Shown: piece by piece, positions 36,182-60,699 of the stretch
How positions within the stretch are numbered: the stretch's first letter is position 1
How the letters are laid out: each line of letters opens with the position of its first letter
From: Polycladomyces abyssicola
GTDB taxonomy: Bacteria; Bacillota; Bacilli; Thermoactinomycetales; JIR-001
DNA length: 64,000 nucleotides
Assembly (NCBI RefSeq): GCF_018326425.1
Contig: NZ_AP024601.1
Location: forward strand, 980,001-1,044,000
Direction: 5' to 3'
The notes under the pieces: generated by a model
Databases searched by the model: none
The model's input: only the letters and a program-made list of their open reading frames with translations
Told to the model about the DNA's origin: nothing
Made by a program: the position numbers and the translations under genes

Positions 36182-37180
36182 TTACCGCATCGCTTTTTTA
36201 GCCAACTCCATTTTGACGATGGTGTCATAGGGAACATTGCCGGGCAGTTCACCGGATTGACGCATGATGTCGATCATATGACCGTATTCTTGTCGGTCGA
36301 TGATCGGGTCGGCGGCCCATGACTGTTGTTCCTTATATCGTTGCAACACTTTTTCCAAGACGGCACGGTTGGTGTCGGGAAATTCCGGGGCAATCACATC
36401 GGCTATTTCCTGCACGGAATGCGATTGGACCCATTGTTGGCCTTGATACACGGCACGAATGAAACGGAGCAAGGTCTCGGGATCTTGTTCAAGCTTGGAT
36501 TGACCGGTGATGTAGACGGTATAGGGAAGGCGACCACTGTCTTTCCCGAATGACGCGACCACTTTCCCTTTTCCCTCCTGTTCCAGTTTGGAGGCGACGG
36601 GCTCAAACAACTGGACGTAGTCCCCTGTCCCGGCAGCAAAGGCGTTACCGAGATTTTTGTAGTCCACGTTTTGAATGATCTTCACATCTTCATGGGGTTT
36701 CAAGCCATGGCGGCGTTGCACGTACTCACTCACCATCTCAGGCATGCCACCTTTGCGTTGGCCCAACAGCTTTTTGCCTCGCAGGTCGCTCCATTGAAAC
36801 GGTCCGGTTTGATTGCGGGCAACGAGAAAACTGCCGTCCGTCTGCGTCAACTGGGCGATGCCGACCACCGGGCGGGCAGCACCGCGCGCGGTGACGTAGA
36901 CGGCGGCTTCCGCTCCGACCAACACAATATCGGCGTCACCCGACAAGAGGGCGGTCATCGTTTTGTCACCGCCGAAGCCGTTGGTCACCTCTACCGTCAA
37001 ACCCTGCTCCTTGAAAAAGCCTTTGCGGATCGCCACATACTGTGGAGCGTAAAACATGGAGTGCGTCACTTCAACCAATCGAACGGTCCGGGAATGGGAA
37101 GAGGATGGAGAACAGGCAGTCACAACCATCAGCCAACAGGTGAGGACGGCGAATCCGATCATCCACCGAAATGTCCGCAT
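36182..37180 (-). CDS. ABC transporter substrate-binding lipoprotein (SsuA/NMT1-like)
   Basis: ATG 37180 is preferred (AAAGGAT eight bases upstream); the frame opens at 37189. A lipoprotein signal ends in VVTAC, then a serine-rich linker. The fold follows NMT1/SsuA proteins: VTHSMFYAPQYVAIRKGFFK, GGDKTMTALLSGDADIVLVG and LRGKKLLGQRKGGMPEMV. It delivers a small solute to the permease. Sulfonates, nitrate, or thiamine-precursor pyrimidines are all possible; no biosynthetic neighbour decides this. Confidence 0.9.
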   Translation of the reverse strand: MRTFRWMIGFAVLTCWLMVVTACSPSSSHSRTVRLVEVTHSMFYAPQYVAIRKGFFKEQGLTVEVTNGFGGDKTMTALLSGDADIVLVGAEAAVYVTARGAARPVVGIAQLTQTDGSFLVARNQTGPFQWSDLRGKKLLGQRKGGMPEMVSEYVQRRHGLKPHEDVKIIQNVDYKNLGNAFAAGTGDYVQLFEPVASKLEQEGKGKVVASFGKDSGRLPYTVYITGQSKLEQDPETLLRFIRAVYQGQQWVQSHSVQEIADVIAPEFPDTNRAVLEKVLQRYKEQQSWAADPIIDRQEYGHMIDIMRQSGELPGNVPYDTIVKMELAKKAMR

Positions 37181-37248
37181 GTCGGTCATCCTTTCTCGAA
37201 ATTCTGGGCTGATGTATCGTATGCCTGGGCTTCAAATTCTGTTCACAT

Positions 37249-45026: not shown

Positions 45027-45742
45027 TTGTTTTTCATTCCGAAAGGATTTATCTCCGGCATTCTCACGTTGGCCGCCTGCACCGTGGGGACCCTGTTCAT
45101 CACCGCGGGTCTCGGGGGAAGCAAGGGGAAACCGGCGGACTATCCGCTTCCCCAGGCTCTGGCCAAGGTGTACGGGGAGGGGACGCTCTTCCCCACCCTG
45201 GTGGCGGTCATCGGTCTGGCGGGTCTCATCGCCAGTCTTCACGGCTTTATCATCGGGTACTCCCGCCAAACCTTTGCCTTGTCCCGGGCCGGTTATCTCC
45301 CTTCGTTTCTTTCCCGGCTCAACCGTTGGAAGATTCCCCACTGGGCCTGATCGTCCCGGGATCTCTCGGGGTAACGTGCGCCGCCTCGGCGGATTTCGCC
45401 AACGCCCTGATCATTCTGTCCGTCTTTGGCGCGGTTCTCATGTACTGCCTGTCCATGGTATCGCTGTTCATTCTCCGAAGGAAAGAGCCGGATCTGGAAC
45501 GGCCTTTCAAGGTCTTCTATCCCTGGGTGCCGGGAGTGGCGCTGATTCTCGGTCTGCTCGCTCTCTACAGCGTCATCAAGTACAGCGTGACCACGTCCCT
45601 GCCGTTCCTCGGTTTCCAACTTCCTTTAAGCTACGTCATCTTCGGTGTTTTCGGCTTGGGTATCTTGTACTATGCGGTGCGGGGGAGCGCACGCATCCGC
45701 CCCATCTCCGAGGAATTCGGGGCGATGCAAGTCTTGGAATAA
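45027..45742 (+). pseudogene. Ethanolamine/amino-acid permease remnant, truncated and frameshifted
   Basis: Two frames join into one APC-family permease. The first (45027-45350) reads PKGFISGILTLAACTVGTLF and RQTFALSRAGYLPSFLSRL and ends NRWKIPHWA-stop; the second continues with LIVPGSLGVTCAASADFANA to FGAMQVLE. A single missing C in the run near 45346 (CACTGGGCC then TGATC) explains the shift. The N-terminal half of the usual roughly 450 residues is missing. The sequence resembles the ethanolamine permease group. The gene is not functional as read. Confidence 0.8.
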
Positions 45743-45913
45743 AAAGGGGACACGTCGGACAGTGCCTAGAAAAGCAGCGAAAGCTATGCAAGTGCTGCAG
45801 ATTGGATTTGGCGACAGAAGAGTCTAGCTGTCGATAATGGGCAGTAGGTCTTCCTATTTGGTATTAATCGAGCTGTTGGTCAGTACAGACTCCGAGCTAA
45901 TTTTGACCCCCGC

Positions 45914-46981
45914 TTAATGGCGGAGGAAGGCGGCATAAAGAAGGGGATTGAGATAGGTCCTTTGAAACATTTTTTTGTCACCGGCTAATGGGAAAATGAT
46001 GCGTAAATCACGGAAATTCACTTCAATCAACCAGGGGCGGCCCTTTTGATCGACTCCGACGTCTAACCCGGCATCAGCGAATGCGGGCCAAGTTTTCTCC
46101 AACTCTTGACAGGTCGCTATGGAGAGGTGGGAAATCCGATGGAGGATAGCTTGGATTCGTTGCTTAGGGAAGCAACGGTTGAGCACGGTCCAGGCCCTCA
46201 TCGCTTTCCCGTTTTGGGCTATGTTCGTCATATGGCTTTGTTTCCGAGCCACTTTGGCCGCAATCCCGCTGATTTCCCATCTTCCGAAGCGCCCTTTCTG
46301 CACAGAAACCCGAAAATCAAAAGGTGCCCCGTTGAAACGGGCCAGCGGAATACCCTGCTGAACCAGATAGTAGCGTCGTTGTTTGAGGGTTCCCAGGTAT
46401 CGGGCCAATCCGGAGGTGGACATCCGGGTTCTCTTGCCTATATATGGATGAACCAGGAAGGATCCTTTCCCCATGTTTTCGATCCTGATGATGTTCTGAC
46501 CCAATGAGCCGATAACGGGCTTGATAAAAACCACCGGGTACTTATCGATCCACGCGACCGCTTTCGTGGTTTCCGTCAACGGGATCATGGCTGGCAGATG
46601 GGTCCGAACCGTTGGATTTCGAGACAGCAATCGATGAATGAACACTTTTTCGCGTCGGATCGGTGGGTTGAACAACCGCTTCCCCATTATCTGCGACAGA
46701 CGGGTCAACTTCGGCGAATACCCCAGCACACGGCTGTGCACGACAGGGGGAAGGGGACGGTGAACAGGAATATAACTCCGGGAAGTCGGATGCCAGACAT
46801 ACCCTCTGATCCGGCGGTTCGTCAGGTCAAGACCCCTGAGGTCAAAAAGGACGGGCTGCAACCCTAGCCGCTTCCCAAACTGAAAATAGAGTTTCGCCTG
46901 TTCACGCGTGGCAAAACCGGCGCGAATGCGGTGTAATAGTTGGGACGACAACAAAATTCCCACGTTGTTTGAACAGTTCAT
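45914..46981 (-). CDS. YheC/YheD-like ATP-grasp protein, spore coat-associated
   Basis: 355 residues. Start ATG 46981 with GGAGAGAGGG upstream. The C-terminal two thirds are ATP-grasp-like: VVFIKPVIGSLGQNIIRIEN, DFRVSVQKGRFGRWEISG, AGLDVGVDQKGRPWLIEVNF. The N-terminal part (GILLSSQLLHRIRAGF, DLRGLDLTNRRIRGYVW) matches the YheC/YheD family found in spore coats. The substrate is not known; ligation of an amino acid or peptide is implied by the fold. It is divergent from a cotSA-like gene. Confidence 0.85.
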   Translation of the reverse strand: MNCSNNVGILLSSQLLHRIRAGFATREQAKLYFQFGKRLGLQPVLFDLRGLDLTNRRIRGYVWHPTSRSYIPVHRPLPPVVHSRVLGYSPKLTRLSQIMGKRLFNPPIRREKVFIHRLLSRNPTVRTHLPAMIPLTETTKAVAWIDKYPVVFIKPVIGSLGQNIIRIENMGKGSFLVHPYIGKRTRMSTSGLARYLGTLKQRRYYLVQQGIPLARFNGAPFDFRVSVQKGRFGRWEISGIAAKVARKQSHMTNIAQNGKAMRAWTVLNRCFPKQRIQAILHRISHLSIATCQELEKTWPAFADAGLDVGVDQKGRPWLIEVNFRDLRIIFPLAGDKKMFQRTYLNPLLYAAFLRH

Positions 46982-47101
46982 TCCAGTACCCTCTCTCCAT
47001 CAAACCAATTGATACTCAATTATATTACCAGGGAGGGAGGATGCCTGGACTTCCGTCCAAAAAAGGAGAATGGCCGTTAAATTGGGATATTCGCCGGTGT
47101 G

Positions 47102-47129
47102 AACAACCGATTTGTCGCCACATAGAATA
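47102..47129 (+). promoter_or_regulatory. SigK-type (late mother-cell) promoter candidate
   Basis: AACA (47102-47105) and CATAGAATA (47121-47129) separated by 15 bases fit the SigK pattern (AC then CATANNNTA). It lies 31 bases before the glycosyltransferase start and supports expression during spore coat assembly. It is a pattern match only. Confidence 0.5.
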
Positions 47130-47160
47130 AAGGAAATTCCCAGGGGGAGGAGACGACGAT

Positions 47161-48324
47161 ATGCGGATCGCTTTCATCAGTCCGGGAAGTTTCCCCGTCC
47201 CGGTTCATTATGGGGGCGGTTCAGTGGAAACGGCGATCACGAATATTGCTGGCAGACTGCCTGCACACTGGAACGTAACGGTACTGGGCAAACGTTTTCC
47301 CGGGTTGAAAGACAAGGAGACAAGGAATCGCGTCACGTACATCCGGATGGAAAACACCTCGCAAAGAAGTTATCTTCATTCCTGCATTCGGTATCTGAAA
47401 AAGTTTCCCCATGATATCGTCCAGGTGGAGAACCGGCCTTCGTTCGTCCCTCTTCTCAAAAAGCGGTTGCCTTGCCCCATATTGCTCTGTATGCATTCCC
47501 TGTTGTTTTTGCGTCCTTTCGCGTTGGGAGGTCGGAACCCACAAGACTGTCTGAATAGCGCCGATCACATCCTGACCAACAGCCATTATCTCCGGTCCCT
47601 CCTCTTGTCCCGTTACAGGACGTCCACCCCCGTCCGCGCTGTGCACCTGGGGGTGGACACAGGAGATTATAGATCCCGTTGGAGCCAGAAGGGAAAACGC
47701 ATTCGCTACCGCCTCCGTTCCCGCTTCGGTTTAACGGGTCGGACCGTGGTTCTGTTCGCGGGCCGGTTGATTCCGATCAAGGGCGTCCACCTGTTGCTAG
47801 AATCCATGATCCAAGTGGTAAAAAAGAATCCGCGGATTCTCTGCATGGTGGTCGGCGGGAGCCGATATGGTTCAAACAGGGAAACGCGGTATGTGAGGAA
47901 ATTGAAACAGATGGCGCGGTCGATCCACCCGCATGTCCGGTTTGCCGGAACCATCCATCCGACGAAGATGCCCCAGTATTACGCATTGGCGGACCTGGTG
48001 GTCACTCCCTCAATCGGACCGGAAGCTTTGGGATTGGTGAATTTGGAAGCGATGGCTTCGGGCCAGCCCGTCATCTCCACCGCCATCGGCGGCATTCGGG
48101 AAACGGTAAAAACAGGAGTGAACGGCATTCTGATCAAACCCTCTCGTTTGAAACAGGAGTTAACCGCCGCCATCCTGCATCTTTCGGAGAACCCAGCTTT
48201 GAGTGAGCGGCTGGGAAGAAATGGTCGTCTTTTCGCTGAACGCTGTTTTTCATGGGATCATACCGCTCGTCAGTACGCCAGAATCTATTACCAAATCCAT
48301 TCTCCAAACAAAGGACGCACTTAA
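47161..48324 (+). CDS. GT4 glycosyltransferase, CotSA-like
   Basis: 387 residues; ATG after GGGGGAGGAGACGACG. Family 4 fold: N-terminal GSFPVPVHYGGGSVETAITN, central GRTVVLFAGRLIPIKGVHLL, and donor-site GPEALGLVNLEAMASGQPVI (EX7E motif). It resembles B. subtilis CotSA, a spore coat glycosyltransferase. The SigK-like promoter and divergent yheC/D-like gene agree with a spore role. Sugar donor and acceptor are unknown. Confidence 0.88.
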   Translation: MRIAFISPGSFPVPVHYGGGSVETAITNIAGRLPAHWNVTVLGKRFPGLKDKETRNRVTYIRMENTSQRSYLHSCIRYLKKFPHDIVQVENRPSFVPLLKKRLPCPILLCMHSLLFLRPFALGGRNPQDCLNSADHILTNSHYLRSLLLSRYRTSTPVRAVHLGVDTGDYRSRWSQKGKRIRYRLRSRFGLTGRTVVLFAGRLIPIKGVHLLLESMIQVVKKNPRILCMVVGGSRYGSNRETRYVRKLKQMARSIHPHVRFAGTIHPTKMPQYYALADLVVTPSIGPEALGLVNLEAMASGQPVISTAIGGIRETVKTGVNGILIKPSRLKQELTAAILHLSENPALSERLGRNGRLFAERCFSWDHTARQYARIYYQIHSPNKGRT

Positions 48325-48531
48325 AAAGGATTCCTTGTGGTCCCCGATCGGGGGGACATCGCGACCGTAGAGGAGTTGGCCGGCCACGATACATGTGCCC
48401 AAACGGTACAACAAATCCTCTGCTAGAGAGCTGGAACAGTCGTTTGGATAAAGGTGGACATAAGCATATGTTTCGAAGAACACGGGCTACTCACTTCACT
48501 AACCCCTTATTAAGTGTGCTTTTTATTGGGG

Positions 48532-49230
48532 TTATCCATGTAGCCTAATAATTTGGAATGCTTCAGCATAATCACTGTAAATCGACTGTCCCCTGAACTT
48601 CGCTTTGGTCAGTATAGACTCTGGATTGATGGGATGTCGCTTGGTTCCCAATTGAGTTTTATATACATTTAATGCGTCTGCTTTTTTTTCTGCTTCCACT
48701 GAACTCATCGGGATGTACAGATGAGGTTGGAAACAAATCTCTCCGTCCGTTTCATAAACAATAACCGACCCGTTCCAATAATAGGGGCGGGTTGCCGTTA
48801 AGGCAGCTTGATGAAGCGCGGTATGATCCTGATGTTTTGTTTTGCTGGGGATATAAATGACAGTGGGATGAAAGTATTTGATTTCTTGCTCTATCTTTGA
48901 TGCCAATTCAACTCTAGGAATCACATCCAACCGACTGTGATACTGTTCTGCTTCATAATCGGTATATAAAAAGCAGTAATCCTTAATCCCCAATATGGCA
49001 TGTGATTGGTTCAATTCTTTTAAACGGACATTGCCATTATAAATTACATATTTATTTGTTTCTGTATCATATTTTTGGCTTTTTCCTTTAACGAACGATG
49101 CAATAACGATCCGGACGATACTGTTATTCTTTAAATATTTTTGAATCACCCCCCCACATCCGATGATTTCATCATCTGCATGAGGGGCTAAAATAAGCAC
49201 CCTTTGTTTGGTGTATTGGATTGCCCCCAT
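48532..49230 (-). CDS. PIG-L family deacetylase
   Basis: 232 residues. Zinc motif APHADDEIIGCGG near the N-terminus and PSKTKHQDHTALHQAA in the middle are typical of PIG-L/LmbE enzymes, which deacetylate N-acetyl sugars or glycoconjugates such as the BshB substrate. ATG 49230 is preceded by AGAGAGGGTGAAAAG. It lies within the glycosyltransferase cluster, so an N-acetyl sugar in a surface glycan is a likely target. Codon usage is more AT-rich than the 47 kb gene. A weak AACCCC/GGGGTT pair follows. Confidence 0.88.
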   Translation of the reverse strand: MGAIQYTKQRVLILAPHADDEIIGCGGVIQKYLKNNSIVRIVIASFVKGKSQKYDTETNKYVIYNGNVRLKELNQSHAILGIKDYCFLYTDYEAEQYHSRLDVIPRVELASKIEQEIKYFHPTVIYIPSKTKHQDHTALHQAALTATRPYYWNGSVIVYETDGEICFQPHLYIPMSSVEAEKKADALNVYKTQLGTKRHPINPESILTKAKFRGQSIYSDYAEAFQIIRLHG

Positions 49231-49407
49231 CTTTTCACCCTCTCTTTTCTCTTTTAATACAATAATTTATTGCGAATACGAGGGTATGGTGTGTTAGAAA
49301 TGCCCTGGTTTTATAAACCAAATTAATTGTAGTCAACTTTGGTCCAATCACCAATCGGATATTTTTTCTATTATGTACTATGAGCCAAATCCAGGGGGAG
49401 ATTGCAA

Positions 49408-50487
49408 ATGCCAAAACCGATAACGGTCCTCCTGACGGGAGTCGGTTCCCCAGGCGCTCCAGGAGTGATTAAATCTCTACGGGCAGTCAAGGAATATGAT
49501 TTTCGTATCATCGGGATCGATATGAATCCCCATGCGGCCGGCCAGGTCATGGTTGACAAATTTATCATCGGTCCCGAGGCCGCGGAACCAGACTTTGTCC
49601 CAAGACTTATACGTTTATGTTCAGCTGAGAACGTGGATGTCATTCTCCCTTTGGTATCCAAGGAGTTACCCCGATTTGCAAAGTGTCTCCACCGTTTCAA
49701 GAAGATTGGGACCGTGGTTTCCGTTTCCGAATACAATCGTTTGATGCAAGTGATGAATAAAGGAACCTTAATCCACACCCTGAAGAAGAAAGGGATTCCT
49801 ACTCCCCGATCTGTGATTGTCAATACAGTGAAAGGATTACGCAAAGCACTGCATGATTTGGGATACCCCGATCACCCGGTATGCTTTAAACCAACGGTTT
49901 CCGATGGCAGCAGGGGATTTCGCATTCTAGATACGCAAAAAAACCGTTTGGATCCGCTCTTCAATGAAAAGCCCAATTCCGCGTATATCAGTGATCACGA
50001 ACTCTTTCGTATTTTGAGTGATTGCTCGGTGATTCCGGAAACGATTGTTATGGAATATCTTCCCCATGAAGAATACAGTATCGATCTATTGGCCAGAGAC
50101 GGGGAAGTCATCGTTGCGATTCCAAGGTTGAGGGAAGCCATCGTCAACGGGATTTCCGTCAAAAGTACGATCGTGAAAGAAGATGATGTGATTGCTTATG
50201 CTTCGCGCATTGTCAGAGAACTTCGTTTGCACGGGAATATCGGCGTACAAATATGTAGGGATAAAGACGCACAACCTAAAATTATCGAAATCAATCCCCG
50301 GATACAAGGAACCATTGTACATTGCACAGCGGCCGGCGTAAACTTGCCTTATTTGGCAGTAAAGTTGGCAAAAGGGATTCCTATTCATTCCTCAGAGTTG
50401 TCTGTTCGATGGGGAACCAGGATGACAAGGTATTGGGAGGAAGTCTTTTGGAGTGAAGAGGGTCTGCCGATCCAACCGGGAATCTGA
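49408..50487 (+). CDS. ATP-grasp ligase (carbamoyl-phosphate-synthase-like)
   Basis: ATG 49408 is seven bases after AGGGGGAG; a TTG at 49402 is less likely. About 359 residues. An N-terminal Rossmann-like part (TVLLTGVGSPGAPGVIKSLR) is followed by an ATP-grasp domain with CFKPTVSDGSRGFRI, VMEYLPHEEYSIDLLARDG and KIIEINPRIQGTIVH. Similar proteins occur in surface polysaccharide and spore clusters and join an amino acid or acid to a glycan precursor. The substrate is unknown. Confidence 0.88.
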   Translation: MPKPITVLLTGVGSPGAPGVIKSLRAVKEYDFRIIGIDMNPHAAGQVMVDKFIIGPEAAEPDFVPRLIRLCSAENVDVILPLVSKELPRFAKCLHRFKKIGTVVSVSEYNRLMQVMNKGTLIHTLKKKGIPTPRSVIVNTVKGLRKALHDLGYPDHPVCFKPTVSDGSRGFRILDTQKNRLDPLFNEKPNSAYISDHELFRILSDCSVIPETIVMEYLPHEEYSIDLLARDGEVIVAIPRLREAIVNGISVKSTIVKEDDVIAYASRIVRELRLHGNIGVQICRDKDAQPKIIEINPRIQGTIVHCTAAGVNLPYLAVKLAKGIPIHSSELSVRWGTRMTRYWEEVFWSEEGLPIQPGI

Positions 50488-50688
50488 ACCTGTCGGGCGG
50501 GGAATCTAATTCATACACCATCCCTTCCCGATACGCAAGCTCCCTGTCGGCAACTATCCAGCAGCATACTGCGAGCAATCCGAACCGACAGATTCAATCC
50601 GATAGTACCCTGATATACTACCATTCTATAAAAAAGGAACGGAATACTGAGGGCGTGAAGCCATTAACTAACGAAGGAGTTAAATAAA

Positions 50689-51405
50689 ATGGAAGGTGTT
50701 TCGGTGATCACTTGTACGATGAGGTCCAATCAAGTACACAATATTTTCAGGAACTTCGTCAGTCAAATGTTTAGAAAAAAAGAGCTGATCATTATCTTAA
50801 ATCGAAAAAACATGAGCCTTCCCCAATGGCTGCAGGTAGCCAAAAAATTTAAGAATGTTCGTGTTTATAAAATTCCTGGGGATACATTGGGAGCATGTCT
50901 CAATTTCGGAATCACAAAAGCAAGGTATTCTTTCATCGCGAAATTTGATGATGATGATTACTATGCCCCCAAATATTTATCTCAAGCAGTACATGCTTTA
51001 AAAACAACTAACGCTTCAATGGTGGGGAAAGGGGCAACTGTTACCTATTTCGAAAATATAAAAACACTCGCTATCCGAAAACCCCATCATGAAAGCAAAT
51101 TTTTGAATGAGATTCAAATGCCCGGACCTCATTTAGGCGGGGGTACCATGGTATTCAAAAAAAATGTGTATCCTTATGTTAAGTTTCCAAATCGAACTCT
51201 ATGTGAGGATATCATATTTCAACAAAGACTTCGTATGAAAGGATATAAGATCTATTCAACGGACAGATATTATTACGTTTCCATCAGGCGAAAAAATAAA
51301 CACACCCACACATGGAAAGGAACGGATGAGAAAGTGTTAAGAGAGTGTAAAATCATTGCACGCACTCAGGATTACAAATCGTACGCAAAAAAGGAGTTAA
51401 TGTAG
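50689..51405 (+). CDS. Family 2-type glycosyltransferase, first copy
   Basis: 238 residues; ATG after GAAGGAGTTAAATAAA. GT-A fold with VSVITCTMRSNQ at the N-terminus, the metal site FIAKFDDDDYYAPKYLSQAV, and HLGGGTMVFKKNVYP plus LCEDIIFQQRLRMKGYKIY. It transfers a sugar from a nucleotide donor to an unknown acceptor. The next gene is a decayed tandem copy starting one base after the stop. It is more AT-rich than the surrounding chromosome. Confidence 0.88.
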   Translation: MEGVSVITCTMRSNQVHNIFRNFVSQMFRKKELIIILNRKNMSLPQWLQVAKKFKNVRVYKIPGDTLGACLNFGITKARYSFIAKFDDDDYYAPKYLSQAVHALKTTNASMVGKGATVTYFENIKTLAIRKPHHESKFLNEIQMPGPHLGGGTMVFKKNVYPYVKFPNRTLCEDIIFQQRLRMKGYKIYSTDRYYYVSIRRKNKHTHTWKGTDEKVLRECKIIARTQDYKSYAKKELM

Positions 51406-52083
51406 ATGGAAGGCGTTTCGGTGATCACCTGTACGATAAGACCCAATCAAATACACAATGTTTTCGGGAACTTTGCCAGACAAATGTTCAAGAAAAAAGA
51501 GCTGATCATTATCTTAAATCGAAAAAACATGAACCTCCGTAGATGGTTGCAGATGGCGAAAAAATTTAAGAATGTTTATGTTTATCAAATGCCAGGGGGC
51601 CCTCTGGGAGTATGTCTTAATTTCGGGATCAGAAAAGCCAGGTATTCCTTCATCGTAAAATTTGATGATGATGATTACTATGCCCCCAAATATTTAACTC
51701 AGGCGGTGCATGCTTTAAAAACCACAGGCGCTTCATTGGTAGGGAAAGACGCACATACCACCTATTTTGAAGGAAAAAAGCTGATCGCCATTTAGACCCC
51801 ATAATCAAAACCGGTATACAAATCATGTAGGCGGGGGTACGTTTGTATTTAAAAAAATGTGTTTCCTCATGTACAGTTTCCAGCGCGAACGCTAGGTGAG
51901 GACATCATATTTCAACAAAGGCTACTAAGGAAAGGATATAAGATTTATTCAACGGATCGATATCACTATGTTTCGATCAGGCGAAAAGACAAACGGAAAC
52001 ATACTTGGAAATAAAAGGATGGAATAGGGCTAAGATATTGCAAAATCATTGCTCGAAGCGAGAATTACAGATTGTACGTTTAA
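51406..52083 (+). pseudogene. Second, decayed copy of the family 2 glycosyltransferase
   Basis: The frame 51406-51795 repeats the preceding gene nearly word for word (VSVITCTIRPNQIHNVF, FDDDDYYAPKYLTQAVHALK) but ends at a TAG after KLIAI. Beyond it, out of frame, the DNA still matches the first copy: GGCGGGGGTACG at 51831, AGGACATCATATTTCAACAA at 51899 and ATATAAGATTTATTCAACGG near 51937. Several indels have destroyed the C-terminal half. It is a recent tandem duplication now decaying. A truncated 129-residue protein could still be made. Confidence 0.88.
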
Positions 52084-52115
52084 GATCAAGGAAATCCATA
52101 AGGAGGTGTTAAGGA

Positions 52116-52583
52116 TTGGTATCGGTTTTATTCGTATGTTTGGGTAACATCTGCCGCTCCCCGATGGCCGAGGCAGTCCTACGCCACAAGCTCCGTCAGC
52201 AGGGTCTGGAGGAGAAGGTTCACGTTGACTCCGCCGGTACCGGGGATTGGCATGTGGGGGCTCCCCCTCATCACGGGACACGCGCCATACTGGCCCGGCA
52301 AGGGATCTCCTACGAAGGAATCAAGGCCCGGCAGGTCAAAAATGAAGACCTGACCCGGTTCGACTACATCGTAGTGATGGAAGATAGAAACCTGGCTTTC
52401 ATCGAGCAGATGGTCGGGACTACGGACAATAGGTTCTGCCGGCTGACCGATTTCATCGGCGATCCCAACTATACCAAAGTGCCGGACCCCTACTTTACCG
52501 GCGACTTCGAAGAAACCTATCGATTGGTAGAGGCCGGCTGTGAAGGCCTCATCCGGACCATCCGGGCACGGGAAGAGATTTGA
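52116..52583 (+). CDS. Low-molecular-weight protein tyrosine phosphatase
   Basis: 155 residues from TTG with AAGGAGGTG ten bases upstream. Catalytic loop VCLGNICRSPMAEAV (CX5R) and the general acid in VPDPYFTGDFEET. B. subtilis YfkJ/YwlE are of this family, and YwlE acts on phosphoarginine. A substrate cannot be assigned. Its higher GC contrasts with the glycosyltransferase copies just upstream. The position beside a glycan cluster could mean control of a tyrosine kinase, but none is in the window. Confidence 0.92.
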   Translation: MVSVLFVCLGNICRSPMAEAVLRHKLRQQGLEEKVHVDSAGTGDWHVGAPPHHGTRAILARQGISYEGIKARQVKNEDLTRFDYIVVMEDRNLAFIEQMVGTTDNRFCRLTDFIGDPNYTKVPDPYFTGDFEETYRLVEAGCEGLIRTIRAREEI

Positions 52584-52606
52584 TGCGGAAGGTCGGGCTC
52601 TAGGGC

Positions 52607-53221
52607 GTGTCTGGTAAAAATCCCCCCTTTAGTACCCTCAGGACGATGGGAGCGGCTCGCAAATGGACACGGCGCGGGGTCCTCACTGACTACCTCCTCC
52701 AACATGGGGCGCTCCCGGCCTACAAGGCGGCGGACGACTATCTTACCCAGGCGGAGGAGCGGCTCACCCAGCGCTTAAACCGGCTGTTTGAGGGGGTGCA
52801 GAACCGGCTCATATCCAAACTTCGCGATCTCGGGTATATTCCTGCGGATCCGGATCGCCGGCAGGAGTTCCTCCCCGAGTTTTTGGGCCACTTGTACGAT
52901 GACCCCCCGGAGGAAGTCACACGGGCAGCCCTGGAGCACGCGGAAGCCGGTCGGCTGCTGACCTTCCAGGAGCTGACCGCTTTTGGGTTTACCTTTTCTT
53001 ACAGCACTTTTGATCCATGGATCCGGGCGAGACTGGCCGAGAAGTTTTATCAGTTTTCCCAGGAGACTGCACGGCGGATCGTGGGAGACGTCGCGAAAAA
53101 CCTGGCGGAATCCTACGAGATGGGGATCGGGATCAAAGAGGCAGCCGTTCGTCTCCGGGAGGTGATCGACGAGACCCGGGAATACCGGCTCCGGCGCATC
53201 GCCCGAACGGAGGTGCAATAA
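52607..53221 (+). pseudogene. Phage head morphogenesis protein remnant (SPP1 gp7 / Mu F type)
   Basis: The frame begins right after a stop, has no ribosome-binding site, and codes for about 204 residues. Its C-terminal helix region GIGIKEAAVRLREVIDETRE followed by RRIARTEVQ is the classical start of the minor head protein domain, in which RTE is followed by more than 100 further residues; here it stops at once. The N-terminal part has YLTQAEERLTQRLNRLFEGV. No other phage gene is nearby. It is a scar of a former prophage. Confidence 0.65.
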
Positions 53222-58087: not shown

Positions 58088-58187
58088 ACAGTACCGTCGA
58101 AAATCTGTGGTTTCGCCCGGAAAAGATCACTTGCGCCGTTGGTCGCGGCGGTTTCGGGCAGGATCTGCCTATGTAAGGAGGGAGAGT

Positions 58188-59558
58188 ATGGCGGACGGTC
58201 AATACAGTCAACTGAGATTTGACATCTTGGAGAAAGTTCGGCTCCATCCTCAACAACCTGGGATCGGTAATTTGCTGGAACTAGATTTGATTCCCGACGT
58301 GGAGATCGAAAACCAAGGATCCCACTTGAAAATCCATGGATATCTCCGTTTGAACGGTCGTTACAGGGGAGACGACTGGATGGTGTCTGAAGGGGAACAA
58401 GAGGTGGAGCAAACGGAATTGTCCGGGGAAACTGAACAGGAACAAGCGGAGGGAGAGGGGGAGGAGACGGAGGAACTGGCGTACGTCATCCCTGTCGAGA
58501 TCACATTACCTTCCAATCGCGCCGCACTGGACCATATCTCCGCCGAGGTGGAATCGTTCGATTATCACGTGTTGTCACCGTTTGAACTGCAAATCGAAGC
58601 GGTACTGGCGATTGACGGCTTTATTCCCGAACCGTCAAACGAAGAGCAGACGGAGGAAGAAACATCTGAAGACAGTCCCGAATTCTCGGGCTATACCCCT
58701 TCTTCTTCGGAGGAGGTGGAGGAATCGTATGAAACGTACTCCTCCCAACCGCCGACGTATCAGTTTGAACATATGGCTCACCCCCATGATGCACGACCGG
58801 CTTATCGTGATCCGGACAGCCAATACGGTTGGGGAACCCGTTCACAGAAAGATGCATCGATTCAATCCATCAGTGAATCGGAAGAAGAGACGGATACACC
58901 TCACGCGTCTGACGGGGAAGAACGAGAACCGGAATGGGACGCGGACGATCCCACGGCCAAACTGCAACCTTACGAGCCGGAGGATGTCGCGGAGAATCAG
59001 GAGGAGAATGAATCGGAAGGCGAGGAACCGGCAGTCGACAAGCGGGAAATGAAAATCGGTTTCCTACGCCAAAAAGAGCAACACCCGTCATCCTTCCGAT
59101 TTCAAGATCGCCTGTTGGGAAAACCGGAACATCCACCGACAGGGCCGACGGAACCCCCTCCCGATTTTGCTCCCGATACAGGATGGGAAACAAATCAGGA
59201 AGAACCGCAATGGCCAAAAAGTGTCCAGTTGTTCAAAGACCAAGAGGAAGAGCAATCAACGGAATCTGCTGATGAACTGGAAACACATGAAGAGGAAACA
59301 AGCGAAGAGGCGGAACCAAATCAGGAAAAATCCGCGACGCAGTTGGAATGGGCCAAATGGTTGATCGGTGAAGAGGAAGAGCAATTTGTCAAAATCAAAA
59401 TGGTGATTGCACAAAAAGAAGACTCGATCGACTCCATTGCCGAAAAGTACAATGTGTTGGCCAGCCAGTTGATCCGTTTGAATCAATTGGAGGAGGGGGA
59501 ATTGAAAGAGGGTCAAATCATCCACATTCCGCAAAAAATTCGCTTGAACGAGTCGTGA
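58188..59558 (+). CDS. spoVID: Stage VI sporulation protein D
   Basis: ATG 58188 follows AAGGAGGG; 456 residues. An N-terminal domain (LRFDILEKVRLHPQQPGIGN...VIPVEITLPSNRA) is followed by a long, very acidic low-complexity middle (about residues 150-400, rich in Glu, Ser, Pro) and a C-terminal LysM domain (KEDSIDSIAEKYNVLASQLI). In B. subtilis SpoVID guides coat encasement of the forespore and interacts with SpoIVA and SafA. Order hemL-spoVID-ysxE-valS supports it. The acidic linker differs in length from homologues, as expected. Confidence 0.93.
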   Translation: MADGQYSQLRFDILEKVRLHPQQPGIGNLLELDLIPDVEIENQGSHLKIHGYLRLNGRYRGDDWMVSEGEQEVEQTELSGETEQEQAEGEGEETEELAYVIPVEITLPSNRAALDHISAEVESFDYHVLSPFELQIEAVLAIDGFIPEPSNEEQTEEETSEDSPEFSGYTPSSSEEVEESYETYSSQPPTYQFEHMAHPHDARPAYRDPDSQYGWGTRSQKDASIQSISESEEETDTPHASDGEEREPEWDADDPTAKLQPYEPEDVAENQEENESEGEEPAVDKREMKIGFLRQKEQHPSSFRFQDRLLGKPEHPPTGPTEPPPDFAPDTGWETNQEEPQWPKSVQLFKDQEEEQSTESADELETHEEETSEEAEPNQEKSATQLEWAKWLIGEEEEQFVKIKMVIAQKEDSIDSIAEKYNVLASQLIRLNQLEEGELKEGQIIHIPQKIRLNES

Positions 59559-59582
59559 ACGATCAAAAGAGATAATGGAGCT

Positions 59583-59616
59583 ACTGCCGTTCTTTTGCGG
59601 CAGTGGCTGATTTTAT
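59583..59616 (+). terminator. Hairpin between spoVID and ysxE
   Basis: ACTGCCG (59583-59589) and CGGCAGT (59598-59604), followed by GGCTGATTTTATTT. The T tract is interrupted, so read-through to ysxE is likely. Confidence 0.5.
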
Positions 59617-59637
59617 TTGGAAAAGGGGGGGAGGCGT

Positions 59638-60699
59638 GTGCCCATTCAATTGCCTGAAGAACGAGCCGTGTTGGAACAAGTGTTTGAACGGTACGGATGG
59701 ATTCCCCTGCAAGTGCGCCCCGTCAGTGGGGTGTTACGCATCCAGACGGCGGATGGTACATTTGCATTAAAAAAATCGTCTTGTTCTGCTGAACAGCTTG
59801 CTTGGTTGCACAAAGTGATGGAGGCTGTTCAATCCAAAGGCCAGGAGATATTTCTGCCATGGTTGAAGACATCCGATGGGGAAGCTTTCGTCCAGTCAGA
59901 AGACGCGGTTTGGTACGCCACTCCGTGGGTGGAAAGTGACGCTGGCCTGCGGGAAACGATCCCCATCGAGGAATTGCCGACCATGTTGGCACACGTTCAC
60001 CACTCGGCGTTCCCGGTTGTTGGGAAACAATCGGATCGGAAGCAGAGCATCAATGCCGAACGCTTGCAGGTATGGGAGGACAAGTTGGGGAAATTGGCCG
60101 AATACCGTGAAGTACTGGAGAGCCGAACGTTTCGTTCCCCATTTGATCATGCTTTTGCGAATGATGCGGAATATGTGGAACAGGCGCTTCGTTTTGCGGT
60201 GAAAGGGATGGAAAAATTCATACAGTCGGATAAGGGGATCGCACCGCGATATACTTTGTGTCACAGTCGGATCCATCCCAGCAACCTGTTGAAAAAAGAC
60301 GACGGATGGGTGTGGATTGACTGGGACCATGCGGCAGTCGACAGTCCAGTTCGCGATCTGGGGGCGTTTTTCCGTCGGTTTTCCCGGCAATTGGATCACG
60401 AGAAAGAGCCGCAATTCTACCTCGCCCGTTATGAAGAGGGATGGAAGCTGAGCGGCAAGGAAAAAAAACTGCTGGCCCTCTATTTGGCATATCCCGAGCG
60501 GCCACTTCGATTGCTTACCCGCTATTATGAGATGCCGGATCGGATTGAGGAGACGATCGCGATTCGTCGCTGGGAAGAGGAGATTGGCCATCTCAGATGG
60601 TTGCAGTCGCTGATCCGTACGCTTTGGCTGGGTAATAAGGGGAATGGGAGCAAAACGCGAAAGACCGAGGCTGTCCGCATTCGATCCCAAAAAAGATAA
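59638..60699 (+). CDS. ysxE: YsxE/CotS-family spore coat kinase-like protein
   Basis: GTG 59638 is chosen, seven bases after AAGGGGGG; TTG 59617 is possible. About 353 residues with an aminoglycoside-phosphotransferase-like fold: LCHSRIHPSNLLKKDD is the catalytic loop region (Asp replaced by Arg-Ile around the usual HGD), and WIDWDHAAVDSPVRDLG holds the metal-binding Asp. In the CotS/YsxE/YutH family kinase activity is unproved. Located after spoVID as in B. subtilis. The basic C-terminus (GNGSKTRKTEAVRIRSQKR) is unusual. Confidence 0.9.
   Translation: MPIQLPEERAVLEQVFERYGWIPLQVRPVSGVLRIQTADGTFALKKSSCSAEQLAWLHKVMEAVQSKGQEIFLPWLKTSDGEAFVQSEDAVWYATPWVESDAGLRETIPIEELPTMLAHVHHSAFPVVGKQSDRKQSINAERLQVWEDKLGKLAEYREVLESRTFRSPFDHAFANDAEYVEQALRFAVKGMEKFIQSDKGIAPRYTLCHSRIHPSNLLKKDDGWVWIDWDHAAVDSPVRDLGAFFRRFSRQLDHEKEPQFYLARYEEGWKLSGKEKKLLALYLAYPERPLRLLTRYYEMPDRIEETIAIRRWEEEIGHLRWLQSLIRTLWLGNKGNGSKTRKTEAVRIRSQKR

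Follow-up and report, generated by a model that had tools for sequence, protein, structure and literature searches.

Within a 64,000-nucleotide stretch of Polycladomyces abyssicola DNA (contig NZ_AP024601.1, positions 980,001 to 1,044,000; hereafter the window), an earlier note made from the sequence had proposed a spore-surface glycan cluster at 45914-52083. We found there an island of seven genes, six of them intact, over 6.8 kb. A YheC/D-type ATP-grasp ligase gene on the minus strand (45914-46981; Pfam PF14398, 222.9 bits against a cut-off of 26.8) is followed on the plus strand by a glycosyltransferase family 4 (GT4) gene (47161-48324; PF00534, 123.8 bits), whose best NCBIfam matches were generic models scoring well under their cut-offs. 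Next come a PIG-L family N-deacetylase gene on the minus strand (48532-49230; PF02585, 73.0 against 28.2 bits) and, on the plus strand, a second ATP-grasp gene of the PylC/carbamoyl-phosphate-synthase-like type (49402-50487; PF15632, 115 against 29.1 bits, with PF02655 and PF21360), for which ATG 49408 is perhaps an alternative start. The remaining genes, also on the plus strand, are an intact glycosyltransferase family 2 (GT2) gene (50689-51405; PF00535, 41.1 bits), a second and decayed GT2 copy (51406 to about 52080) with in-frame stops at codons 130, 133, 149 and 203 of 225, and, starting 35 bases past that copy, a gene of the low-molecular-weight phosphotyrosine-phosphatase family (LMW-PTP; 52116-52583; PF01451, 138.8 against 23.2 bits). 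All six genes named in the earlier note are thus present, the decayed copy included (profile matches and four in-frame stops), and each of their starts is preceded by a Shine-Dalgarno-like sequence as judged by eye. The note's extent holds for those genes, but the unit reaches about 52606 and takes in the phosphatase gene.

Two other genera carry the island as a single block, which bears out the earlier suggestion that its genes belong together. Its limits, 45803-52606, are the outer limits of DNA common to Marinithermofilum abyssi (L062) and Melghirimyces profundicolus (L063): blastn aligned 45803-52585 to M. profundicolus at 90.2% identity, and 45923-50560 and 50655-52606 to M. abyssi at 92.1% and 89.3%, respectively. 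Compared with the same two 20 kb loci at E 1e-5, the rest of the window gave only a 42-base piece at the left end and cross-matches between GT2 copies. The neighbours of the block are type II secretion/ComG-like genes and an aldo-keto reductase gene in M. abyssi, and four YheC/D genes and a fatty acid desaturase gene in M. profundicolus. Two congeneric species (G001 and G002), whose HemL protein is 98% identical to that of the window, align to it at 92-93% DNA identity over 34.5-44.9 kb, up to 44908, and resume from 53319 and 53213, respectively, at 77-89%; the island is absent between these points, and genome-wide neither species had a match to the ATP-grasp (E 1e-40) or to the GT2 (E 1e-10). 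Synonymous divergence (dS) of the intact island genes among the three carrier genomes was 0.13-0.35, against a near-saturated 2.4 for hemL between the window and M. profundicolus (a single control, L147), and the ratio of nonsynonymous to synonymous divergence (dN/dS) was 0.11-0.32 for the six intact genes (for GT2 from one comparison only). Because island dS lies far below that of hemL, the block stands in other contexts and two sister species are without it, the island is, as judged from these sequence comparisons, a horizontally transferred working block under purifying selection. At the island site the two sister species have a gene with a lipoprotein-like start, as judged by eye (L185:4089-5990 and L186:15787-17099), the last bases of which match the window around 53206, a likely junction. 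The second GT2 copy, decayed in the window, is open over 226 amino acids in M. abyssi. In M. profundicolus (L063:9553-10071) the state is the opposite of that in the window, with the second copy open and the first frame-broken, and in Bacillus dakarensis two GT2 domains lie in a single 488-amino-acid open reading frame (ORF; L064:10001-11467).

The PIG-L, second ATP-grasp, phosphatase and GT2 genes recur together well beyond these close copies. Searching GTDB genomes with the GT2, we collected 77 loci, the best of 437 relatives and, by title, all from Bacillota but for one labelled Pseudomonas. The genes named in the earlier note do co-occur in relatives: nine of these 77 loci hold the ATP-grasp, and all nine also hold PIG-L. 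The set of PIG-L, ATP-grasp and GT2 occurs at about 40-67% identity, in rearranged order, in Bacillaceae and Paenibacillus. YheC/D and GT4 genes also lie within 10 kb of it in B. dakarensis (L064) and Paenibacillus ginsengarvi (L077), and YheC/D genes are near the core in five of the nine core-bearing GT2 loci compared with five of the 68 others (P = 0.0013, or P = 0.005 once the near-identical L062 and L063 are merged, with ascertainment through GT2 and relatedness uncorrected in both). Searches led by the ATP-grasp, which carry no GT2 bias, found it in 4 of 249 genomes of the class including the window, adding G129, and in 4 of 381, adding G548 and G293 (the other two being L081 and L082). 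Linked GT2 genes were present in six of the seven non-window loci found in this way (G009, G017, G129, G293, G543, G548 and G565). Across the 13 distinct orthologous loci (window, L062-L065, L069, L077, L079, L081, L082, L190, L202 and L203), PIG-L lies within 6 kb of the ATP-grasp in 13, GT2 is present in 12 and a phosphatase in 12: LMW-PTP in six, the window included, and a PHP-family protein in six (that of L203 frame-broken), with none in L082. Within two of these modules we noted other genes: a transposase-like ORF (HTH_38, rve), which we take to be IS30-like, between GT2 and phosphatase in Neobacillus terrae (L065:11649-12575), and a protein-kinase-domain gene (PF00069, 141.4 bits) between the GT2 genes in B. 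dakarensis (L064:11754-12509).

More distant relatives of the second ATP-grasp keep part of this company. A scan of the phylum (4 of 398 genomes, including the window) yielded three distant Bacillota ATP-grasps, all three with PIG-L nearby; that of L210 is incomplete and adjoins a stretch of N, that of L212 is contiguous with a PHP gene, and that of L211 is preceded by an ornithine/diaminopimelate-decarboxylase-type gene. Plasmid records gave the ATP-grasp on nine (haloarchaeal and Lawsonia, 27-42% identity) and the GT2 on three (Paenibacillus, Citrobacter and Nonomuraea). In Halobaculum (L141), PIG-L, ATP-grasp and PHP form an overlapping run; in Haloarcula (L139), a polysaccharide deacetylase, a glycosyltransferase, the ATP-grasp and a HAD-family phosphatase stand together. 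The phosphatase gene directly follows the ATP-grasp gene, with a 6-base gap or overlapping ends, in G129 (LMW-PTP), Paenibacillus (PHP), Halobaculum (PHP) and Haloarcula (HAD). One ATP-grasp family beside three unrelated phosphatase types suggests a small phosphorylated substrate, not protein signalling. Tentatively, and with rather less confidence than we attach to the island pathway set out below, we propose that PIG-L, the PylC-like ATP-grasp and an exchangeable phosphatase (LMW-PTP, PHP or HAD) may constitute, as a three-gene cassette, an undescribed glycan-amidation system across Bacillota and some haloarchaea. In endospore formers this cassette would be joined to the YheC/D-GT4 pair and tandem GT2, the whole passing from genus to genus as an island for a spore-surface glycan. 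Another recurrent neighbour of the distant ATP-grasps, adjacent or close by, is a DUF354 protein, seen in three haloarchaeal loci (L139, L140 and L142) and in L212.

The YheC/D ATP-grasp and GT4 form a second recurrent pairing. At E 1e-40, GT4 had matches in 31 of 61 genomes, and 30 of the 37 matches came with loci, the window included. YheC/D and GT4 share one open frame in 18 of these 30 loci (one, L013, frame-broken) and adjoin each other in seven; in the remaining five no YheC/D was found within 1.5 kb. The sister species carry the fused form, 748 amino acids long (L187 and L188). In G012, a 71% GT4 homologue is divergent to a 66% YheC/D homologue, followed by another GT4 and then by a CotS-family kinase (147.3 bits, below its cut-off of 172.7). 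YheC/D proteins are numerous in the host genome, with 24 family matches in 3.2 Mb (22 above cut-off, four short or broken), mostly clustered near 813-818, 1496-1507, 1636-1645 and 1865-1874 kb. Given this pairing and the closeness of the YheC/D fold to amide ligases described below, the two proteins most likely act on one substrate, which would receive a sugar and, through an amide bond, an amino acid.

Both ATP-grasps, PIG-L, the intact GT2 and the phosphatase retain residues that do not vary among their relatives. The YheC/D ATP-grasp keeps the conserved K154, D307, E320 and N322, with the ExN pair E320/N322 invariant among 10 aligned sequences. PIG-L keeps the zinc motif PHxDDE and the downstream HQDH (H17, D19, D20, H133 and H136 invariant in 12 sequences), and its nearest solved sequence is diacetylchitobiose deacetylase (E 7.8e-5). 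In the GT2, D87-D89, E173 and D174 are invariant in 15 aligned sequences; the LMW-PTP keeps its CxxxxxRS loop and DP loop (C8, R14, S15, D124 and P125 invariant in six sequences); and the second ATP-grasp retains the residues that are invariant among its aligned relatives. A predicted model of the YheC/D protein (predicted local distance difference test (pLDDT) 90.9) matched RimK best (Z 22.9, 273 residues, 3.0 Å), followed by LysX/ArgX and glutathione synthetase, all of them, like RimK, amide ligases; lower, at about Z 19, came TTLL6, level with synapsin and inositol-phosphate kinases. The model of the second ATP-grasp (pLDDT 79; weak in residues 159-180 and 190-194 and over most of the final 16) had an uncharacterised structure, 2pn1, as its top match (Z 28.6) and matched PylC (4ffr) at Z 24.7 over 285 residues and 3.2 Å; its PylC-like N-domain, PF21360, scored 45.9 against 27 bits.

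A possible link to sporulation comes from a promoter motif and from the distribution of GT2. As a motif, the SigK-like promoter that the earlier note placed before GT4 is confirmed: AAC-N16-CATANNNTA lies at 47102-47129 on the plus strand and ends 31 bases ahead of the GT4 start, the only occurrence in the 64 kb window, where 0.24 would be expected. It is exact in M. abyssi, has a 17-base spacer in M. profundicolus and is degraded in the 71% homologue of G012 (one change in the -10 element, and AGC for AAC). Among 52 upstream regions scanned, the exact SigK matches were those of the three GT4 copies and one PIG-L gene (L203); four one-mismatch SigK and four one-mismatch SigE matches lay elsewhere, and the remainder had none. 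GT2 (E 1e-25) was found in 24 of the 249 class genomes, and each of these 24 belongs to the 177 that are SpoIVA-positive (P = 1.7e-4). The CotS-family kinase in the row of genes beside the G012 homologue points the same way. A spore location for the product is plausible and, provided that the glycan reading holds, we rate it somewhat above an even chance; from the motif, mother-cell (SigK) expression is predicted for at least GT4.

The gene set, its sharing as a unit, purifying selection, the fusion and the recurrent neighbours are observed; the reactions that follow, with their order, substrates and location, are inferred. The island would encode a pathway for surface-glycan assembly and amide decoration that moves horizontally as a block and whose product, in endospore formers, goes to the spore surface; we give this reading a probability of roughly 0.5. 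GT2, with its tandem copy where that is intact, and GT4 would add sugars, including an N-acetylated amino sugar, from which PIG-L would take off the acetyl group and free the amine. Two routes are conceivable for the amide that the PylC-like ATP-grasp would then form: an amino acid or other acid could acylate this amine, or a sugar carboxylate could be coupled to a small and perhaps phosphorylated amine. The cluster phosphatase (LMW-PTP here, PHP or HAD elsewhere) may strip a phosphate, acting on the amide product or on what precedes it. The YheC/D ATP-grasp with GT4 would make up a second pair of glycosyltransferase and amide ligase, often a single protein, of a kind resembling RimK-type amino acid ligases. 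In endospore formers the most likely destination of the product is the spore surface, by way of SigK-directed transcription of GT4, if not of more genes, in the mother cell.

Glycan amidation with dephosphorylation is proposed here because the island combines, from other families, the roles described for the Campylobacter jejuni HS:2 capsule, plus a deacetylase that would, instead or in addition, make an amine available to be acylated. In the HS:2 system, as outlined in PMC11800379, an ATP-grasp enzyme amidates glucuronic acid with serinol phosphate or ethanolamine phosphate, Cj1435 acts as the phosphatase that takes the phosphate off, and the amidated sugar is open to extension by two GT2 domains. 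The likeness is that Cj1434, Cj1435, Cj1437 and Cj1438 bring two GT2 domains, an ATP-grasp amide ligase and a phosphatase into one surface-glycan cluster (PMC11800379). The systems differ in that the C. jejuni ATP-grasp is fused to a glycosyltransferase and is TupA-like, whereas that of the island is PylC/ATPgrasp_Ter-like, and the enzymes of this Gram-negative capsule covered in that account include no counterpart of the island's PIG-L, GT4 or YheC/D ATP-grasp (PMC11800379). We considered a TupA amidoligase and set it aside: a Pfam scan of both island ATP-grasps (E 0.01) gave other ATP-grasp families and no TupA-named model.

Known spore systems share single parts with the island. The cotS/ytaA-cotSA-ytcC-ytcAB-ytdA spore coat cluster likewise has GT4-type glycosyltransferases in a spore former, and SigK controls cotS/ytaA there, as the island has a SigK motif; the island lacks a CotS-family kinase and a nucleotide-sugar enzyme, and the cluster as tabulated lacks the island's ATP-grasps, PIG-L, phosphatase and GT2 (PMC2860764). 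Judged by the CotS-family kinase expected beside the glycosyltransferase, the island does not fit the CotS/CotSA cluster: none of its seven genes had a kinase-family match. The Bacillus subtilis sps pathway for legionaminic acid, as described in PMC7439481, is alike in holding spore-surface glycan genes including the GT2 SpsA, but none of the sugar-synthesis enzymes named there appeared in the island family scans. Bacillus YheC and YheD are of the same Pfam family, PF14398, as the island member, which differs in being paired with a GT4 and, in relatives, in sharing one frame with it. In open-licence PMC literature (titles and abstract openings) we found neither the combination nor the island, no link of PIG-L, ATP-grasp and phosphatase, no spore or polysaccharide cluster that holds PIG-L together with an ATP-grasp, and no YheC/D-GT4 fusion, the fusion not having been searched by name. 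The individual parts are known families; their combination is possibly an undescribed kind of surface-sugar decoration.

Several observations weigh against the proposed pathway. The strands of the island genes alternate, which implies several transcripts and hence not one operon. The ATP-grasp fold matches rank close together (PylC Z 24.7, biotin carboxylase 24.2), so that the fold does not reveal the substrate. Proteins are the usual substrates of LMW-PTPs, and in several clusters (those of the window, M. abyssi, M. profundicolus, B. dakarensis and N. terrae) the LMW-PTP gene does not directly follow the ATP-grasp gene. G129 holds the core without a linked GT2, PIG-L is present in one of the four haloarchaeal loci examined (drawn from the nine plasmid records), and in the two Haloferax loci (L140 and L142) no annotated deacetylase or such phosphatase lies within 6 kb of the ATP-grasp.

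Other observations weigh against the spore surface. Five of the six window gene starts scanned gave no SigK- or SigE-type match, and neither did the divergent intergenic region between PIG-L and the ATP-grasp (49231-49401). Counted per genus, GT2-positive genera were SpoIVA-positive in 13 of 13 cases against 90 of 104, which is not significant (P = 0.13). Plasmid-collection records hold GT2 relatives outside spore formers (Citrobacter freundii, 35% identity; Nonomuraea, 31%), and the core ATP-grasp is carried by haloarchaea, which do not form spores. A CotS-type kinase was found in 0 of the 77 GT2 loci (phmmer, two queries, E 1e-8), and a collagen-like ORF (at least 12 unbroken GXX repeats) in just one. 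The earlier idea of a spore-surface glycan cluster is therefore upheld in part: the enzyme types fit the building and decorating of a sugar or amino-acyl glycan, but the coat location is no more than plausible, in view of the five gene starts without a motif, the lack of CotS-type kinases in the 77 GT2 loci, and the relatives of the core in polysaccharide-type clusters of other Bacillota and in haloarchaea.

The strongest alternative is that the enzymatic logic is as proposed and serves a vegetative capsule or exopolysaccharide instead of the spore surface. The distant ATP-grasp/PIG-L pair of L210 adjoins a Wzz gene, the neighbourhoods of L210 and L211 contain other sugar genes (judged from first residues only), and the archaeal relatives of the ATP-grasp sit among polysaccharide genes; to this are added the lack of a sporulation motif at most island gene starts and the GT2 relatives on Citrobacter and Nonomuraea records. 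However, the island family scans recognised no polymerase, flippase or export gene, the SigK motif stands ahead of GT4 in three copies, and across the 249 class genomes GT2 occurs only alongside SpoIVA. We regard a vegetative destination as possible, at appreciably lower odds than the spore surface.

GT4, PIG-L and an amino acid ligase also follow the order of MshA/B/C and BshA/B/C. The island could on that account make a small molecule resembling bacillithiol or mycothiol, with GT4 forming an N-acetylglucosamine (GlcNAc) conjugate, PIG-L deacetylating it and an ATP-dependent ligase attaching an amino acid. The top NCBIfam matches, MshA for GT4 (116.5 bits) and BshB1 for PIG-L (38.5 bits), lean this way, and lincosamide synthesis, as summarised in PMC4351081, offers a precedent in which an amino sugar is amide-linked to an amino acid with mycothiol-related enzymes. 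But the ligase here is an ATP-grasp, accompanied by GT2 and a phosphatase, the partner of PIG-L and ATP-grasp in relatives is more often GT2 than GT4, and the YheC/D partner and the phosphatase are left unexplained, all of which make a thiol-type product improbable. The mycothiol and bacillithiol enzymes themselves were rejected on their curated cut-offs: MshA scored 116.5 of 462.5 bits, BshA 77.5 of 273.7, BshB1 38.5 of 182.5 and BshB2 36.4 of 195.25.

Less probable still is that the ATP-grasps add amino acids or peptides to coat proteins in the manner of RimK or TTLL enzymes, with the glycosyltransferases acting separately. The YheC/D model is nearest RimK and LysX/ArgX, with TTLL6 lower, enzymes that act on proteins or carrier proteins, and YheD of B. 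subtilis is presented in PMC3533761 as a SpoIVA-interacting base-layer coat protein. Against this, YheC/D and GT4 have a common frame in 18 of 30 loci, a sign that the substrate is linked to a sugar, and the second ATP-grasp is accompanied by PIG-L in all 13 loci. That the genes are unrelated passengers collected at a recombination-prone spot, with no shared pathway, would fit the permease fragment and truncated ORF at the site, a gene G+C of 0.37 to 0.57 and the dead GT2 copy, but is largely refuted by the recurrence of PIG-L, ATP-grasp and GT2 at about 40-67% identity in rearranged order and by purifying selection on six intact genes, and we consider it very unlikely.

For the glycan-amidation pathway, the island offers named genes and a natural comparison of gain and loss, in sister species with and without it. 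To our knowledge, few enzymes of spore-surface polysaccharides are understood. Such polysaccharides affect adhesion and hydrophilicity, as noted in PMC11708026. The chemical prediction is of amide-linked groups on de-N-acetylated sugars. As the link between PIG-L, ATP-grasp and phosphatase extends to a haloarchaeon, one solved reaction would aid the annotation of orphan polysaccharide clusters, and the YheC/D-GT4 pairing gives a hint, from gene context, for a family matched 24 times in this genome.

Both flanks of the island carry remnants that lie outside it. On the left, on the plus strand, is a frame-broken amino-acid permease fragment (45027-45742), with PF13520 at 27.3 bits (cut-off 27) on 45326-45742; on the right, also on the plus strand, a truncated ORF (52607-53221) matched no Pfam family and may resemble the end of a phage MuF head gene. 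Carriage by phage or plasmid was considered and rejected, the ATP-grasp search of viral contigs having confirmed none (a single-protein query, which reaches close relatives only) and plasmid records having given only the nine ATP-grasp and three GT2 matches named above.

Elsewhere in the window, spoVID-like and ysxE-like genes lie downstream of hemL (58107-60699; 136 of 169.85 and 134.4 of 263.55 bits, both below curated cut-offs), an order that we take to be that of B. subtilis. The YsxE/CotS-family gene (59617-60699) thus stands outside the island, beside the spoVID-like gene. The sole exact match in the window to the SigK-type form with the longer spacer, AAC-N17-CATANNNTA (0.21 expected), is at 37215-37243 on the minus strand, and ends 25 bases ahead of an SsuA-like substrate-binding gene (36182-37189) in a run of ATP-binding cassette (ABC) transporter genes.

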